Below are positions 24,306-53,878 of a stretch of 57,291 nucleotides of DNA, piece after piece. How positions within the stretch are numbered: position 1 is the first letter of the stretch; every line of letters starts with the position of its first letter. Source of the stretch: Myxococcaceae bacterium (GTDB lineage: Bacteria; Myxococcota; Myxococcia; Myxococcales; Myxococcaceae). The notes under the pieces are model-generated. The model searched no databases and had not been told where the DNA came from. It was given only the letters and a program-made list of their open reading frames with translations. The position numbers and the translations under genes were made by a program. The stretch lies in the NCBI GenBank assembly GCA_019694595.1, contig JAIBBQ010000018.1:1-57291 (forward strand), read 5' to 3'.

Positions 24306-27300
24306 TCACTGGCAGGTCAGCACGCTGGTGAAGGTCCCTACCGGGGTGGATCCGTTCGCCGAGTAGTACACCCGACCCACCGACGCCCACGCCGTGAAGG
24401 CCTGCTTGTCGCCCCCCCGGCAGTCCGGATCAGCGCCGCACGTCGCGTTGGTGGCCGCCAGCTCCACCGTCGAGCTCGCCGGCTGCTTCACCCCCAGCAG
24501 GTCCGTCTGCCGCGTCATCACCTGGCGCCGGAACCCACTGGAATCATTGACGTAACGAATGGCCGAGAGCCACAGGCCGGTGGCCGTGGCCGACCCGCGC
24601 GGCCGCAGGATCGAGCTCACCCCGTTCTGGTTCGCGTACGCCAGCCAGGCGTACTTCCAGCCCGGGTCCGTCGACACCCAGAAGTCGAGGTCCGCATCGG
24701 ACGACGAAGAGTCGCGGGTGACGTAGGCGACCAGGGTCTGATCCGCGCTCGCGTTCCGGAAGAAGGTCACGTCGGGCTCGTTGAGCGTCCGCGGAGAGGT
24801 CACCGAGTACACCGCCGTCTCCGCGCTCTTGCCCGTGCCGTCCTCGTTCAGGCTGAAGGTGGTGAGCGCGGTGGCCGAGGTCAGCCAGGCGAGCTGCACC
24901 TTGCGCAGGGTCGAGGTGGCCGCGGGGCACGTCTGCGTCGCCACCCAGTCCTGGTGGCTCGAGTCCGCGCCCAGGCCCGCAGGCTGGCTCGCGGTGCTCC
25001 CGGAGATGACCACCGGCGTCGGCACCGCACCGCACCCCGGGCCCTTGATGCTCCAGGTGCCGGCGGTGGCGTCGAAGCACGGCTCGACCCGCGTCAGCTT
25101 GTAGCCCACCGACGCCTCGCGCCAGATGACCGTCACTCGCTTGCCGTTGCCCCGCACCAGCCGCAGCGAGTCGAGGGCGTTGCCGGTGTTGAACTGGCTC
25201 CACAGCCGGGTCCGGTACGCGCCGGTCGCGCCATCGTGGAAGTAGAGATCGATCTCGACCGGCGTACCGCTTGAGTTCCGGTAGATGCCGGCCAGCACAA
25301 AGCCATCGCCTGCCTGGGCCAAGTCCACGTCCGTGTAGTTGAGGCTGGAGGCTGCGGCCACCGGGTTCCCCACCGGCACGCCCGCGGTGCTCAGCGCCTG
25401 CACGTAGAAGCCTCCGTCGGCGCCCGCCATCGCCAGCGCGCCACCGGCGAGCCCATCACTGCCGCCGTTGGTGGTGCCGCCGGCGCAGCCGTTGGCCGAG
25501 TAATAGAACGGCTCGACCTCCACGTCGGTCCACGCCGGCGCGGTGTTGAGGTTCACCGTGGAGGTGAGCGTCGGCTCGTCGACCACCCCGTCGCAGTCGT
25601 TGTCCAGCCCGTCGCAGGCCGCCGCGGTGGGGCTCTTCGGGCTCACGCTGCACACCGTGGAGAGCTGATCCGCCGCGCACACGTAGGTGCCGGTGTTGGC
25701 GCACACCCCGAGGCCGACCGTGCAGGCCTGGCCGCGGTTGGTGAAGGTCTCGTCGGTGCTCCCGTTGCAGTCGTCGTCGAGGAGGTTGCACTTCTCGGCC
25801 GACGGCGCGGTGTTGCGCACGCACGCGAGGCTCCCGCTCTGGCAGGTCTGCGTCCCCGCCGCGCACACGCCCGCCTGGCCGGTGTTGCACGCGCCGCCGC
25901 CGCCGGGGTTGTTCTCGTCGGTCTGGCCGTTGCAGTTGTCGTCGACGCCGTTGCAGCTCTCGGCGAGTCCGGGGTGCACCGCCGCCACGGAGTCGTTGCA
26001 GTCGCCGTTGTTGGTCACCCGCCCGGTCACCGGGCCGCAGCTCACCACCGCCGCGCCCCCCGAGGCGCCGTACCCGTCGCCGTCGCCGTCGACGTAGTAG
26101 CTCTGCGTCGGCAGGCCTTCGTCGGCCGCGCCGCTGCAGTTGTCGTCGACGCCGTTGCACACCTCGGTTGCGCCCGGCTTGATGCTGGCGATCCCGTCGT
26201 TGCAGTCGGTGTTGTTGGTCACCTTGCCGCTCACCGGCGCGCACGAGGACTGGGCGCTCGAGGCGCTCGACCCGAACCCGTCGCTGTCCAGGTCCGGGTA
26301 GTAGTTCAGGAAGGTGAGCCCTTCGTCGACCTGCCCGCTGCAGTTGTCGTCGGTGCCGTTGCAGACCTCGGACGCGCTCGGCTTCACCGCAGAGCTGCTG
26401 TCGTTGCAGTCGCCGTTGTTGGTCACCCGGCCCGTCACCGGTGCGCAGGAGACGATGGCCGTGGTGCCCGAGGCGCCGTAGCCGTCGCCGTCGTTGTCCA
26501 CGTAGTAGCTCTGGGTGACGGTGCCGTTGTCCACCAGGCCGTCGCAGTTGTCGTCGACCGAGTTGCAGGCCTCGGGCGCGCCGGGGTGCACCGTCGCCAC
26601 GGAGTCGTTGCAGTCGGTGGCGCTGGTCACCTTGCCGCTCACCGGCGCGCAGGACACCTGGGCGGTCGCGCCGCTGGCGCCGTAGCCGTCCATGTCCACG
26701 TCCGGGTAGTAGCTCGCGGTCGCCAGACCTTCGTCGACCATGCCGTTGCAGTTGTCGTCGCGGCTGTTGCAGGTCTCGGTGGCGCCCGGCTTCACCGCGA
26801 AGAGCGCGTCGTCGCAGTCGAGGTTGTTGGTCACCCGGCCGCTCACCGGCGCGCAGGCGCTCTGCGCCGCCGCCGACTTGTTGCCGTAGCCGTCGCCGTC
26901 GCTGTCCGGGTAGTAGTTCTGGAAGGTGAGCCCCTCGTCCGTCTGGGCGTTGCAGTTGTCGTCGATGCCGTTGCAGAGCTCCGTCGCGCCCGGCTTCACC
27001 AGCGGGTTGGCGTCGTCGCAGTCGTTGTTGCTGGTCACCCGGCCGGCCACCGGCGAGCAGCTGTTCTGCACCGTCCCCGCGCCCACCCCGTCGCCGTCGC
27101 CGTCGACGTAGTACCCGACGAAGGTCAGCCCGTCGTCGACCGCGCCGTTGCAGTTGTCGTCGACCGCGTTGCACACCTCGGGCGCGCCCGGCTTCACCTG
27201 GGCGTTCATGTCGTTGCAGTCGCCGTTGTTGGTGACCTTGCCGGCCACCGCCGCGCACGCCGTCTGCGCGGTGGACCCCGTGGCGCCGAAGCCGTCGCCG

Positions 27301-28223
27301 TCCATGTCCGGGTAGTAGTTCCTGAACTGCAGGCCTTCGTCGATCTGCCCGTTGCAGTCGTCGTCGAGCCCGTTGCACGACTCCGGCGCGCCCGGCTTCA
27401 CCGTGGGGCTGGAGTCGTTGCAGTCGAGGTTGTTGGTCACCTTGCCCGCGACCGTCGAGCAGCTGTTCTCGGGGGCCGCGCCGGCGGAGCCGAAGCCGTC
27501 GCCGTCCACGTCGGGGTAGTAGTCTTGGTAGGTGATGCCGTTGTCGATCTGCCCGTCGCAGTTGTCGTCGACCTTGTTGCAGAGCTCCGCGGCGCCCGGC
27601 TTCACCGTCGGGTTGGCGTCGTTGCAGTCGAGCTTGTTGGGCACCCGGCCCATCACCTTCGGCTGGCAGCTCGAGACCGCGGTGCCGCTCGCGTCGCCCG
27701 AGCCGTCGCCGTCCACGTCGACGTAGAAGTCCTGGAAGGTGAGGCCGTTGTCGACCTCGCCGTTGCAGTCGTCGTCGACCGCGTTGCACACCTCGGCGGC
27801 GCCGGGCTTCACCGCGGCGTCGCCGTCGTTGCAGTCGCCGGTCTCGAGCACGCTGCCCTTGGGGGCCGGCCCGCACGCCTCGCCGGTCACCTTGTCGCTG
27901 CCGACGCCGTCGCCGTCGCCGTCCTCGTAGTACTTCTGCGTCGGCAACCCTTCGTCGGCCTTGCCGTCGCAGTTCTGGTCCACTCCGTCGCAGGTCTCCT
28001 GCGCGCCGGGGTGCACGGTGACGTCGGCGTCGTTGCAGTCGACCGTCGGCTCGCTGGCACAGTCGCCGGTGCCGGGCACGCCGTCGCCGTCGGCGTCGAC
28101 GCAGGTCTCCATCATGACCGGGGGCATGCCGGAGTCCGGCACGGGCTTGGAGCCGCCGCTGCCGCAGCCGGCGAGCAGCAGCGCCCACAGGGCGGAGACG
28201 ACCACTGCGATGCGGGACATCAT
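24306..28223 (-). CDS. giant MopE-like lipoprotein with eleven Asp/Cys metal-binding units
   Basis: The protein has 1305 residues. Signal peptide with lipobox LLLAGC (Cys20). Eleven units follow to about residue 768. Each full unit is 68 residues: 'YYPDVDGDGFG' (EF-hand-like Asp loop), a Cys segment, 'DCND', a 'VKPGA' turn, then 'CNGVDDNCNGQVDEG'. This is the MopE-like metal-binding motif (PF11617); Ca2+ is the likeliest ligand. A Cys-rich linker with similar C-N-D motifs (about 770-880) leads to a C-terminal domain (about 890-1305) of beta-strand character with 'GGFYVQALSTAG' and 'SVGRVYYSANG', possibly a propeller (inference). Start: paired ATGs at 28223 and 28220 after GGCAGG. Probably outer-membrane anchored. 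Confidence 0.85.
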   Translation of the reverse strand: MMSRIAVVVSALWALLLAGCGSGGSKPVPDSGMPPVMMETCVDADGDGVPGTGDCASEPTVDCNDADVTVHPGAQETCDGVDQNCDGKADEGLPTQKYYEDGDGDGVGSDKVTGEACGPAPKGSVLETGDCNDGDAAVKPGAAEVCNAVDDDCNGEVDNGLTFQDFYVDVDGDGSGDASGTAVSSCQPKVMGRVPNKLDCNDANPTVKPGAAELCNKVDDNCDGQIDNGITYQDYYPDVDGDGFGSAGAAPENSCSTVAGKVTNNLDCNDSSPTVKPGAPESCNGLDDDCNGQIDEGLQFRNYYPDMDGDGFGATGSTAQTACAAVAGKVTNNGDCNDMNAQVKPGAPEVCNAVDDNCNGAVDDGLTFVGYYVDGDGDGVGAGTVQNSCSPVAGRVTSNNDCDDANPLVKPGATELCNGIDDNCNAQTDEGLTFQNYYPDSDGDGYGNKSAAAQSACAPVSGRVTNNLDCDDALFAVKPGATETCNSRDDNCNGMVDEGLATASYYPDVDMDGYGASGATAQVSCAPVSGKVTSATDCNDSVATVHPGAPEACNSVDDNCDGLVDNGTVTQSYYVDNDGDGYGASGTTAIVSCAPVTGRVTNNGDCNDSSSAVKPSASEVCNGTDDNCSGQVDEGLTFLNYYPDLDSDGFGSSASSAQSSCAPVSGKVTNNTDCNDGIASIKPGATEVCNGVDDNCSGAADEGLPTQSYYVDGDGDGYGASGGAAVVSCGPVTGRVTNNGDCNDSVAAVHPGLAESCNGVDDNCNGQTDENNPGGGGACNTGQAGVCAAGTQTCQSGSLACVRNTAPSAEKCNLLDDDCNGSTDETFTNRGQACTVGLGVCANTGTYVCAADQLSTVCSVSPKSPTAAACDGLDNDCDGVVDEPTLTSTVNLNTAPAWTDVEVEPFYYSANGCAGGTTNGGSDGLAGGALAMAGADGGFYVQALSTAGVPVGNPVAAASSLNYTDVDLAQAGDGFVLAGIYRNSSGTPVEIDLYFHDGATGAYRTRLWSQFNTGNALDSLRLVRGNGKRVTVIWREASVGYKLTRVEPCFDATAGTWSIKGPGCGAVPTPVVISGSTASQPAGLGADSSHQDWVATQTCPAATSTLRKVQLAWLTSATALTTFSLNEDGTGKSAETAVYSVTSPRTLNEPDVTFFRNASADQTLVAYVTRDSSSSDADLDFWVSTDPGWKYAWLAYANQNGVSSILRPRGSATATGLWLSAIRYVNDSSGFRRQVMTRQTDLLGVKQPASSTVELAATNATCGADPDCRGGDKQAFTAWASVGRVYYSANGSTPVGTFTSVLTCQ

Positions 28224-30131: not shown

Positions 30132-31238
30132 TCAACGCTCCAGACGCGCGGTCACCGTGACCTCGTCGCGGTCGTGGTACAGCTGGCGCACGCGCACCTG
30201 CTGCCAGCCGCCTGCTTCCAGCAGCGCACGCACGCGGAAGATGATGGTGTTCTTGTCGTTCATCGGCAGCTTGATGTTCGCCACCAGGAAGCGCGTCCAC
30301 CGGTTGCGCGCCCACTTGCCGAGCAGCGCCGCCACTTCGAGCGGCCGCCAGGCCATGTCGCAGAAGAGCCAGTCGGTGCGCTCCGGCGGCTGGTAGCCGA
30401 ACGCGCTCGAACGCACGTGCTTCACCAGCCGGTGCCCGAGCAGCTCCGGCATCAGCGCCGCGGGGTCGACTGCCACCACCCGTGCGCCCTTTGAAATGAG
30501 CCGCTGGGTCCACCCCCCGGGCGCAGCGCCGAGGTCCACGCAGGCCTCTTCCGGGCCCGGCGAGTGGCCGAAGGTCTCGAGCGCCTCTTCCAGCTTGAGC
30601 GCGGCCCGCGACGGCGCGTCGCGATCGCGCAGCATGCGGTGCCGGCCGCCGGGTGCCAGCGAGAGCGCGTCGCGCGCCATCACCCGCCCCACCGCGCCGA
30701 GCTGCGGCGACAGCACCGCGAGCTGGAAGAGCGCGGTGCCGCGGTCCCACGCGGCCTTCGCCGTGGGCAGCTCGTCCGCGCCGCGCGCCTCGCGCCAGGA
30801 ATTCAGGAGCGTCTGGGCGCCCCCGCTCAGCCGGTTGCCCTCGTCGGTGTCCGGGACCCAGGCCTGGAGGTGACCCGGGCCGCGCGGCGCATGAAGCGCC
30901 TCGAGCGGGCCCGACGCGTCGACCACGAAGCCCTGGCGCGCGAAGGCCGGGGCCGACTTGGGTGAATCCGACTCCACCAGCGCGGGCCCGAGGAGCTTGG
31001 GCTGCGCCTTCTGCCAGGCGAGCTCCTCGTAGAGGTGGCCCTCGAAGCCCGCGCGGCACGTCCACAGCCAGCGCCCGCGGCCGGGGAGCTCGAGCCTCGG
31101 CGGCAGCTTGGGGTGCCGCACCGCGGGCGGCGGGTCGGGCAGCTTGGGGGCCGGCGGCGGAGGCAGCGGCCGGTGCTCCGCCCGCGGAGGTCGCCGGGTC
31201 GGTCGAGTGGACGGGCGTGTCGGTCGCCGCTTGCGCAT
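30132..31238 (-). CDS. rlmM: RlmM-like 23S rRNA 2'-O-ribose methyltransferase (FtsJ fold)
   Basis: The protein has 368 residues, close to E. coli RlmM (366). The N-terminal 50 residues are Arg/Pro-rich, then a THUMP-like region, then a Rossmann methyltransferase domain. The SAM motif is DLGAAPGG (235-242). The FtsJ-type catalytic tetrad K-D-K-E is visible: Lys215 (RAALKL), Asp294 (LFCDMAW), Lys323 (VANIKLP) and Glu359 (DRDEVTV). RlmM methylates C2498 of 23S rRNA in E. coli; the same target here is an inference. Next to secA on the opposite strand. Confidence 0.82.
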
Positions 31239-31311
31239 GGGCGGTTGCGTCTTACCTTGCCTCACCGTATTTCCCGTGGCTTTCCGCCAAGAAGGCGGCC
31301 AAGAGGCACTC

Positions 31312-34119
<2,808 letters not shown>

Positions 34120-34152: not shown

Positions 34153-34530
34153 GGTACCCACGCACCGGGTCGCCCCACGCACCGGGTCGACCCACGCACC
34201 CGGTCGACCCACGCACCCGGTCGACCCACGCACCCGGTCGACCCACGCACCCGGTCGACCCACGCACCGGGTCGACCCACGCACCCGGTCGACCCACGCA
34301 CCGGGTCGACCCACGCACCCGGTCGACCCACGCACCGGGTCGACCCACGCACCCGGTCGACCCACGCACCCGGTCGACCCACGCACCCGGTCGACCCACG
34401 CACCGGGTCGACCCACGCACCGGGTCGACCCACGCACCCGGTCGACCCACGCGCCCGGTCGACCCACGCACCCGGTCGACCCACGCACCCGGTCGACCCA
34501 CGCACCCGGTCGACCCACGCACCCGGTACC
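34153..34530. repeat. 22-copy, 17-bp tandem array with GGTCGACC core and GGTACC caps
   Basis: Twenty-two units of the form GGTCGACCCACGCACCS (S = C or G) follow each other without spacers. All 21 junctions but the first (GGTCGCCC) contain GGTCGACC, giving 20 SalI-type GTCGAC palindromes. The first and last units are closed by GGTACC (34153-34158 and 34525-34530), which equals GGTCGACC without its central CG. Unit-to-unit variation is almost only C/G at the last position, plus one A-to-G change in unit 18. It fills the space between the convergent 3' ends of secA and the GntR gene. Confidence 0.97.
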
Positions 34531-34552
34531 AAGGGATTTGGGAGCGGGCCGC

Positions 34553-51522: not shown

Positions 51523-52821
51523 ATGGCGACCAAGGTGAAGAAGGCGCGGCGCGCGGTGGTGGTCGGCGGCATGCGGACGCCATTCGTGAAGGCGTTCGCC
51601 GAGTACCTGACGCTGGACACCATCGCGCTGGGCACGCTCGCCTCCCAGGGGCTGCTCGAGAAGCTCAATCTCTCGAGGCAGCACATCCAGTCCGTCGTCT
51701 GGGGCGGCGTGGTGCTGCCGGGCCTCGCGCCCAACCTGGCGCGGGAAATTGCGCTGGACCTCAAGCTCCCGGCGAGCGCGGAGGGCATGACGGCGACCCG
51801 GGCCTGCGCGTCGGGCCTGCAGGCGGTGACCCTGGCCGCCGCGGCCATCGAGCGGGGCGAGGCCGACGTGGTGCTGTGCGGCGGCTCGGACTCGACGTCG
51901 AACGCCGAGGTGAAGCTGCCGCAGAAGGTGGTGCACGCGCTGGCGCCGCTGGCGTTCGGCAAGGCGAGCCCGGGCGACGTGCTGGGGGTGCTCGCGCAGC
52001 TGATGCCGCTGTCGGAGATCCTCCCCAAGATGCCGCGCATCGCCGAGCGCACGACGGGCGAGGTGATGGGCGAAGCGGCCGAGAAGATGGCGGTGCGCAA
52101 CGAGATCTCCCGCCGCGCCCAGGACGAGCTGGCGCTCGCCTCGCACCACCGCGCGGCGGCGGCGATCTCCAGCGGCCGGTTCGACGACGAGGTCGTTCCG
52201 GTGCAGACGCCGGAAGGCAAGTGGGTGCACCGCGACCAGCTGGTGCGGGCGACGACCTCGCTGGAGAAGCTCGAAGCGCTCAAGCCGGTGTTCTCGAAGA
52301 CGGGAACGGTGACCGCCGGAAACGCGAGCCCGCTCACCGACGGGGCTGCGGCGGTGCTGCTGATGAGCGAAGAGGCGGCGAAGGCGCACGGATACACGCC
52401 CCTCGCGGCCTTCGCGTCGTGGGCGTACACGGGCGTCGACCCGAAGGATCAGGTGCTCCTGGGGCCTGCGCTGGCGATGCCGCTGGCCCTCGAGCGCGCG
52501 GGGCTGACGCTGGAGCAGATGGACCTGGTGGACATGCACGAGGCCTTCGCGGCGCAGGTGTTGAGCGTCCTCAAGGCCCTGGAGAGCCCCGGGTTCGCGA
52601 AGACGCGCCTCGGCCGCGACGCTCCGGTCGGCCGGGTGCCTCGCGAGAAGCTCAACGTGCACGGTGGGTCCATCGCCATCGGGCACCCGTTCGGGGCGAC
52701 CGGCGCGCGCATGGTGACCACCATGTCGAACGAGCTCCACCGCACCGGCAAGACCCATGCCCTGCTCGGCATCTGCGCCGCTGGAGGCCTCGGGGCGGCC
52801 GCCGTGCTCGAGCGGATCTGA
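51523..52821 (+). CDS. 3-ketoacyl-CoA thiolase / acetyl-CoA acetyltransferase, FadA2/FadI-like
   Basis: The protein has 432 residues. Active residues are intact: nucleophile Cys95 (TRACASG), His388 (AIGHPFGATG) and Cys418 (GICAAGGLG). It cleaves 3-ketoacyl-CoA or joins two acyl-CoA units. With the dehydrogenase, hydratase and reductase just upstream it completes a full four-step cycle, which can in principle run either way. Last gene of the operon; a capped 17-bp array begins 8 bp after its stop. Confidence 0.92.
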   Translation: MATKVKKARRAVVVGGMRTPFVKAFAEYLTLDTIALGTLASQGLLEKLNLSRQHIQSVVWGGVVLPGLAPNLAREIALDLKLPASAEGMTATRACASGLQAVTLAAAAIERGEADVVLCGGSDSTSNAEVKLPQKVVHALAPLAFGKASPGDVLGVLAQLMPLSEILPKMPRIAERTTGEVMGEAAEKMAVRNEISRRAQDELALASHHRAAAAISSGRFDDEVVPVQTPEGKWVHRDQLVRATTSLEKLEALKPVFSKTGTVTAGNASPLTDGAAAVLLMSEEAAKAHGYTPLAAFASWAYTGVDPKDQVLLGPALAMPLALERAGLTLEQMDLVDMHEAFAAQVLSVLKALESPGFAKTRLGRDAPVGRVPREKLNVHGGSIAIGHPFGATGARMVTTMSNELHRTGKTHALLGICAAGGLGAAAVLERI

Positions 52822-52825
52822 AAAC

Positions 52826-52928
52826 CGCCGGTACCGAGTGACCGGGTCGACCGAGTGACCGGGTCGACCGGGTGACCGGGTCGACTGAGTGACCGGGTCG
52901 ACCGGGTGACTGAGTACCGGCGCTTTTT
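52826..52928 (+). terminator. inverted repeat plus T-tract enclosing the second 17-bp array
   Basis: CGCCGGTAC (52826-52834) and GTACCGGCG (52914-52922) are perfectly complementary. CTTTTT follows at 52923-52928. The layout is that of an intrinsic terminator whose 79-nt loop is the repeat array. It lies 5 bp after the thiolase stop. Confidence 0.6.
52830..52920. repeat. 5-copy, 17-bp tandem array with GGTCGACC core and GGTACC cap
   Basis: The units read GGTCGACCGAGTGACCG with R and Y transitions at three positions. The first unit is shorter by CG (GGTACC at its start, 52830-52835), and the last ends in AGTACC. Period and core are the same as in the array at 34153-34530. The unit divides into an 8-mer (GACCGAGT) and a 9-mer (GACCGGGTC) that alternate. 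One unit variant matches the reverse complement of the first array's unit over 13 contiguous bases. Confidence 0.95.
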
Positions 52929-53026
52929 CCGGCGCCGCGGCCTCAGGCACTCACAAGTCGAGAAAGATCCCGGGCGGAGCCTGGAAACGAGCCCCCGGCT
53001 GGGCTTCGTGGTCTTCTCCGCAGGCA

Positions 53027-53878
53027 ATGGCATCGGCGGACCGACCACCGAGCGGCGGTGTGGCGCTCAAATTGCTCTACGAGGCGGCGACCCTCGTCCT
53101 GGCGACCGTCGCGGTCGGAGGCCCGCTGACCTTGGTGGTGCTCGGTCTGCGCCAGGCCACCGAGTGGCTCCCGTGGTGGGCCATCACCCTTCTGGCGCCT
53201 CTCTGGTTCGCGGCCTTCCTCGTCTTCCTGTGTGCCGCGCTCTTCGCGCTGCGGCTCGTCGTGCCGCGCCTCGTGCCCGGGCACTACGCCCCGGGCCACG
53301 GGGCGTGGACCGCGTGGGGGCTGCACTTCATTCTCCGGAGGCTCTGGGCACAGCCCCTGTGGTCGGGCGTGCTGATGACCTCGCCGGTGCTGCGCACGCT
53401 CTCGCTCCGCGCGCTCGGCGCCCGGGTGGCGTTCGACATCAACACCGCGATGGACACCCTGTTCAGCGACCCTTCCCTGCTGCGCATCGACCGCGGCGCG
53501 ATGGTCTCCGGGGGCTGCATCGTCGCCGGCCACTTCGTCGAGAACGGCATGCTGCTGCTCGGGGCCACCCACATCGCTGAAGGTGCGCAGATCCTCTCCA
53601 GCTGCATGATCGGCCCCGGGGTCACCGTCGGCCCCAACGCGGTGCTCGCGCCGGAATGCCGCATCGGGCCCGGCGCTCGGATCGGCGCGCAGGCCCACGT
53701 CGGCTACGGGTGTCAGGTGAGCGGAGGGGTGACCATCGGCGAGGACGTGGTGGTCGGACACCAGGTCACGCTCGAGCCTGGCGTGGTGCTGGAAGCCGGC
53801 GCCGTGGTGCCTTCGTACGCCCGCGTCCCCAAGAACCACGTGGTGCCCGCTGGAACGCGGTTCAAGCCCACGCCGTGA
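53027..53878 (+). CDS. membrane-anchored left-handed beta-helix (hexapeptide) protein
   Basis: The protein has 283 residues. Two or three hydrophobic helices (about 15-45 and 50-85) precede a parallel left-handed beta-helix (about 145-275) of hexapeptide repeats with Ile/Val every sixth residue ('GPGVTVGPNAVLAPECRIGP', 'VSGGVTIGEDVVVGHQVTLE'). It may be an acetyltransferase, or like the C-terminal region of poly-lysine synthetase-type NRPS proteins, which also join membrane helices with such repeats. Substrate unknown. ATG with GCAGG upstream, a weak site. Confidence 0.75.
   Translation: MASADRPPSGGVALKLLYEAATLVLATVAVGGPLTLVVLGLRQATEWLPWWAITLLAPLWFAAFLVFLCAALFALRLVVPRLVPGHYAPGHGAWTAWGLHFILRRLWAQPLWSGVLMTSPVLRTLSLRALGARVAFDINTAMDTLFSDPSLLRIDRGAMVSGGCIVAGHFVENGMLLLGATHIAEGAQILSSCMIGPGVTVGPNAVLAPECRIGPGARIGAQAHVGYGCQVSGGVTIGEDVVVGHQVTLEPGVVLEAGAVVPSYARVPKNHVVPAGTRFKPTP

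Follow-up and report, generated by a model that had tools for sequence, protein, structure and literature searches.

The question raised by this locus is whether an array of short palindromes, which lies directly behind a thiolase gene in a genome of the Myxococcaceae, is the terminator of that gene or a member of a repeat family that is dispersed in the genome. The features around the array are listed below with their positions in the window (the whole stretch of DNA that was analysed, 57,291 nucleotides).

51523-52821, plus strand: upstream gene, acetyl-CoA C-acyltransferase (thiolase, FadI-like; NCBIfam TIGR01930, 398.6 bits, over the cut-off; reading frame)
52821-52824, no strand: AAAA tract, 6 nt outside the left GTAC, sharing the last base of the stop codon (sequence and end rule)
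52826-52830, plus strand: left outer arm CGCCG (sequence, fold)
52830-52918, no strand: array of iterated short palindromes with a 17-bp period (TRF, unit parse, fold, identity to the array of contig C380)
52830-52835, no strand: left cap GGTACC, with the terminal GTAC at 52831-52834 (sequence)
52845-52852, 52862-52869 and 52896-52903: cores GGTCGACC
52879-52886: core GGTCGACT
52912-52918, no strand: right cap GAGTACC, with the terminal GTAC at 52914-52917
52918-52922, plus strand: right outer arm CGGCG, pairing with 52826-52830 (fold)
52924-52928, plus strand: TTTTT tract, 6 nt outside the right GTAC (sequence, end rule)
52942-52952, no strand: CTCAGGCACTC, 11 bases that stand alone and are identical to part of GTACTCAGGCACTC, the end motif of the family
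53027-53878, plus strand: downstream gene, hexapeptide-repeat acyltransferase-like protein (Pfam PF00132, E 6.6e-25)

TRF reports a tandem repeat at 52833-52910 with a 17-bp period, 4.6 copies and 91% matches, which confirms the 17-bp tandem array that an earlier note on this DNA had placed at 52830-52920. The array starts 8 bases 3' of the thiolase stop codon (52819-52821), and the hexapeptide acyltransferase-like gene lies on the same strand as the thiolase gene, about 110 bases beyond the array (gene calls are based on codon-position GC with Pfam support, and short genes may be miscalled). The array contains four GGTCGACY cores separated by spacers of the form GRGTGACCG, and has GTAC at both ends. 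The GGTACC cap assigned to it in the earlier note is present at the left end (52830-52835) and absent from the right end, which reads GAGTACC; on the minus strand this right cap starts with GTACTCAGTCACCCGGTCGACC, a form of the conserved end motif of the family described below (one mismatch to GTACYSWGGCACNSGGTCGACC). The ends do pair and are then followed by five Ts, as had been noticed: the arms CGCCG and CGGCG are complementary, and the TTTTT at 52924-52928 is one of only two plus-strand T5 runs in the 57-kb window. Just past this T5, the copy of CTCAGGCACTC at 52942-52952 is a possible remnant of a second array end.

The predicted RNA of 52815-52940 folds into one rod of -76.8 kcal/mol (z -5.8; 0 of 200 shuffles were as stable), and a tighter stretch around the array gives -72.1 kcal/mol (z -7.8). 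When the array is deleted in silico, the junction AAAACCGCCGGTACCGGCGCTTTTT still folds into a hairpin of 5 bp around a loop of GTAC (-7.8 kcal/mol). The idea that the whole array is the loop of a terminator does not hold, since the array is not unpaired: most of the stem is built from its half-units, each a palindrome RGT-x-ACY in which x is CG, one base or empty, and the GGTACC cap is the empty-x version of this palindrome. The 17-bp period results from the alternation of RGT[CG]ACY and RGT[N]ACY half-units, which follow each other in steps of 9 and 8 bp. Because every half-unit is such a palindrome, both strands fold strongly; the complementary strand and the single-stranded DNA of the array also fold far better than their shuffles, and the family arrays compared with their own shuffles on both strands give z values of -1.4 to -14.6, nearly all below -2. 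Rfam returns only a sub-threshold match to a microRNA family for the array, which is a chance match for a long hairpin.

The array is one of about 16 loci on 14 contigs of this genome (7.28 Mb; a draft of 394 contigs, 99% complete), three of which are cut by contig ends, so that some may be one locus. Contigs C155, C387 and C287 end or begin inside arrays; the assembly therefore breaks there, and the true array number may differ. A blastn search within the genome gives 67 matches on 14 contigs, and the core-N9-core pattern occurs at 173 places, as compared to 17 for the reversed control. The array of C380 shares 95% identity with the 52830-52918 array over 81 bases. A longer member of the family is found in the window itself, behind secA:

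31108-34119: secA (NCBIfam SecA), with the first array at its 3' side
34153-34532, no strand: first family array in the window, built of 22 units and capped by GGTACC on either side (TRF, parse)

The commonest spacer of the family is GGGTGCGTG, whose reverse complement, CACGCACCC, is the form read in the first array; further spacers in other arrays are GGGTACGTG, CGGTGCGTG, GAGTACCTG, GGGTGACCG and GAGTGACCG. The earlier note took the nine spacer bases at 52830-52918 to be independent of those in the first array, but when compared on the same strand GGGTGCGTG is identical to the G form of GRGTGACCG at 6 of 9 positions. Both main spacer types are also mixed inside single arrays (L025 on contig C48, and L032 on contig C179). 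The argument for independent sequence rather than simple copying is not supported: with mixed spacers and a 95% identical sibling, both window arrays are copies of one dispersed family, and their alike period, core and caps are therefore to be read as descent within it. Among the spacer-anchored units, 91 of 93 keep the same core and differ in their spacers, and this invariance suggests selection. Spacers are repeated within arrays, as opposed to the unique spacers that define CRISPR.

The recurrence of the cap, also claimed before, extends to the whole family: GTAC is found at every well-defined array end, with one GTGC exception (the left end of the C380 array falls outside the well-defined set). 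Outward of the terminal GTAC, 14 of 18 independent ends have a run of at least three As or Ts whose first base is at offset 6 or 7 (T in 9 of the 14, A in 5), as compared to a mean of 0.44 and a maximum of 5 in 20,000 random-offset draws. Only 4 of 1928 ordinary GTAC flanks (0.2%) in 400 kb elsewhere in the genome obey this end rule, and no GTAC site in the same 400 kb has phased tracts on both sides. The rule was spotted by eye before testing, and the margin far exceeds that bias. The outward consensus is GTAC-Y-R-R-S-G-S-W3-5 at both ends, and the end motif GTACYSWGGCAC is present at one end of many arrays.

Beyond the ends, two classes of flank recur beside unrelated genes: class A is common to 4 arrays (about 28 bp, GTACTTTGCCCTCGGGGG) and class B to 6 arrays (about 55-60 bp, GTACCCTGCCGCCAACGAG...CCGGTGCTTTCTCGGACAC, longer in two). 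All other flanks are unrelated in sequence. Class A and B flanks were considered as wider repeats and rejected as such, clear matches being found only beside arrays. The longest common flank in the family is that of L027:1811-2060 and L035:2205-2424, where about 170-250 bp of apparently non-coding sequence next to unrelated genes are 75-80% alike.

The 52830-52918 locus resembles an intrinsic (Rho-independent) terminator in its G+C-rich stem, upstream A4, downstream T5 and adjoining stop codon, and the stem closes one base before the T5, i.e. within 2 nt of the U-tract; it differs in that the stem is very long and built from tandem units. The terminator look stems partly from features of the repeat family. 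The T5 follows the family end rule and so is not by itself a terminator signature, and five ends of the family carry an outward A tract, which no terminator requires and which counts against a terminator reading. Contiguous outer pairing reaches 5 bp at this locus only, as compared to 0-2 bp at the other 11 two-ended loci, so paired arms with a U-tract are not common to the family copies (5-bp pairing in 1 of 12 loci); most members have neither arms nor a downstream T-run of 4 or more. The intrinsic terminator proposed earlier is plausible for this copy, and the reading does not extend to the family. Since 0.8% of random GTAC pairs show outer pairing of at least 5 bp, seeing it once in 12 loci is no more than mildly surprising. 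A hairpin flush with the tract was tried as a family rule and rejected (stems of 4.07, as compared to 4.03 with swapped flanks; p 0.48). Simple intrinsic-terminator-like sites in the window number 4 (4.4 expected), 2 (4.5 expected) and 13 (7.9 expected); they are not clearly enriched, so U-tract terminators may be rarely used by this organism. We give about even chances to the array ending the thiolase transcript as an intrinsic terminator or capping it at the 3' end.

For the 12 arrays with both neighbours called, the two flanking genes are tandem in 8, convergent in 4 and divergent in none, and three more arrays with one neighbour in reach each adjoin the 3' end of a gene. The neighbours include truB, secA, what we take from its sequence to be atpA, a MutS-like gene and protein kinases; with neighbours this diverse, there is no functional theme.

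REP/BIME elements are extragenic palindromes at gene ends, tagged by GTAG or CGTC, and termination, mRNA stability and supercoiling have been proposed as their roles (PMC3733652, PMC1525189, PMC2817692). The family is like them in being dispersed, palindromic, arranged in tandem clusters and located at extragenic gene ends, often between convergent genes (12 of 12 arrays non-divergent, and 3 more at a 3' end). It differs from them in several respects: a REP is a single imperfect stem-loop of 20-40 bp, whereas the family has palindromes of 6-8 bp every 8-9 bp; one end of a REP bears a GTAG or CGTC tag that is unpaired, whereas the family has GTAC at both ends; and REPs occupy hundreds of loci, as compared to about 16. 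The RAYT (Y1 transposase) domain PF01797 has 0 matches in the 99% complete genome, in which the controls are detected, and with no Y1 transposase in the genome membership in the RAYT/REP system is rejected. Prokaryotic satellites are defined as at least four repeats of 10-200 nt, intergenic, with one family present at many sites of the genome (PMC6749651). The family fits this definition of dispersed satellites (minisatellites), and MIRU-type arrays are comparable; to these it adds alternating palindromes, uniform GTAC ends and a phased outer A/T tract. Because it fits the satellite definition and lacks three defining REP features (stem type, tag and RAYT gene), we file it as a variant of dispersed palindromic satellite.

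In other genomes, a pattern search finds no arrays with the GGTCGACC core in 59 relatives (the same genus is not represented among them), and blastn against 95 other genomes of the bacterial family, none of the same genus, finds no such arrays, with weak hits to 8-bp arrays in G005 (a genome of a related genus) and one short hit in G079. G005 instead has arrays of the 8-bp motif GGTSACCS, with 85 pattern matches as compared to 0 in 94 other genomes of the bacterial family and 3 in this genome. These arrays contain three to ten 8-bp copies, mostly within tandem units of about 79-87 bp (loci L163-L167, e.g. L166:2115-2492 and L167:4025-4525). They share with the family the half-unit palindrome GGT-S-ACC and its head-to-tail iteration, and have no GTCGAC-core arrays and no GTAC caps; they may be a relative of the family or a case of convergence. 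A scan of about 85,000 species gives seven stretches with this core and a 17-bp period (in Nocardia, Brachybacterium, Rathayibacter, Stieleria, Streptomyces, Actinomadura and a Nannocystineae MAG), all with spacers unrelated to those of the family, and we judge these scattered stretches to be what independent tandem repeats would give. The Rathayibacter array (L126, at about 1855; 17-bp repeats of GGTCGACC, unrelated phylum) adjoins the palindrome GGTCGAGTAGCCCCGCAGGGACGTATCGAGACC. No such arrays were found in viral contigs, and an open-access literature search found no paper on them. Homologues of the thiolase in relatives are about 50% identical to it, and so is a second copy in this genome; a comparison through this gene gave no orthologous site that lacks the array.

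We think it fairly likely that 52830-52918 is a copy of a dispersed palindromic satellite that is specific to its lineage, resembles REP/BIME, has defined ends and lacks a RAYT, and the family probably works like BIME. The unit number would shift through slippage or recombination, and copies would disperse through duplication or insertion. The array RNA would form a 3'-end hairpin of the BIME/REP style that could shield, slow or end transcripts, and this action would not depend strictly on a U-tract. REP, the large known class of dispersed bacterial palindromes, is linked to RAYT transposases. The present family resembles REP in placement and folding, yet the genome has no RAYT, and the sharp end rule makes the question of spread testable.

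The same ends could be those of a mobile element that inserted at (A/T tract)-N6-GTAC-N6-(A/T tract), duplicated the GTAC and was spread by a putative transposase or recombinase, an unlikely though credible reading. GTAC at both ends, the phased A/T tracts at 14 of 18 ends (left and right, in otherwise unrelated flanks) and the partial consensus Y-R-R-S-G-S between GTAC and tract (0.2% background) speak for it, as does the fact that unrelated loci have the element in common while one of the two flanks differs. However, an empty site flanked by both tracts is absent from 400 kb of the genome, the common flanks at ends of classes A and B continue for about 28-250 bp past GTAC without a phased tract, and the genome has no Y1/RAYT transposase. 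GTAC-like palindromes also occur in the unit, so the GTAC may belong to the array. We find it distinctly unlikely that the family is an undescribed mobile palindromic array that would insert, mobilised by a non-RAYT enzyme, at (A/T)-N6-GTAC-N6-(A/T) 3' of genes and add 17-bp units between fixed GTAC caps; if so, the host would gain 3'-end hairpins of adjustable length.

We regard it as unlikely, though credible, that the arrays are a neutral minisatellite, i.e. functionless slippage repeats that persist only in the intergenic space behind genes. The arrays vary strongly in length, mix their units and occur in only one genome of 96 in the bacterial family, which agrees with this, as do the sporadic unrelated 17-bp arrays of other phyla. 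The 3'-end placement, which could simply mark where neutral insertions survive, counts against the preferred satellite; core invariance, uniform GTAC ends and the phased tract are not expected from slippage alone. Terminator selection across the family, in which a normal terminator AAAACCGCCG-GTAC-CGGCGCTTTTT would have received the array in its GTAC loop, is very doubtful. The empty junction of 52830-52918 does form a 5-bp stem with AAAA upstream and TTTTT downstream, and 5 of 19 ends have an outward T run of at least 4 no more than 15 nt away, but contiguous outer pairing is confined to this locus, tract-flush stems are no better than with swapped flanks, and several outward tracts are A. 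It is also quite improbable that the arrays act at the DNA level as binding sites (candidates are gyrase, a nucleoid protein or a recombinase; compare the gyrase sites of BIMEs between convergent genes): the near-invariant 8-bp palindromic core, the spacing of roughly one turn of the helix between the A/T tract and the middle of the terminal GTAC, and the 3'-end and convergent placement would suit such binding, while a 17-bp pitch is out of phase with the helix.

The window also contains, at 25915-27837, a large and probably coding tandem repeat whose period is about 204/408 bp (70-78% matches).
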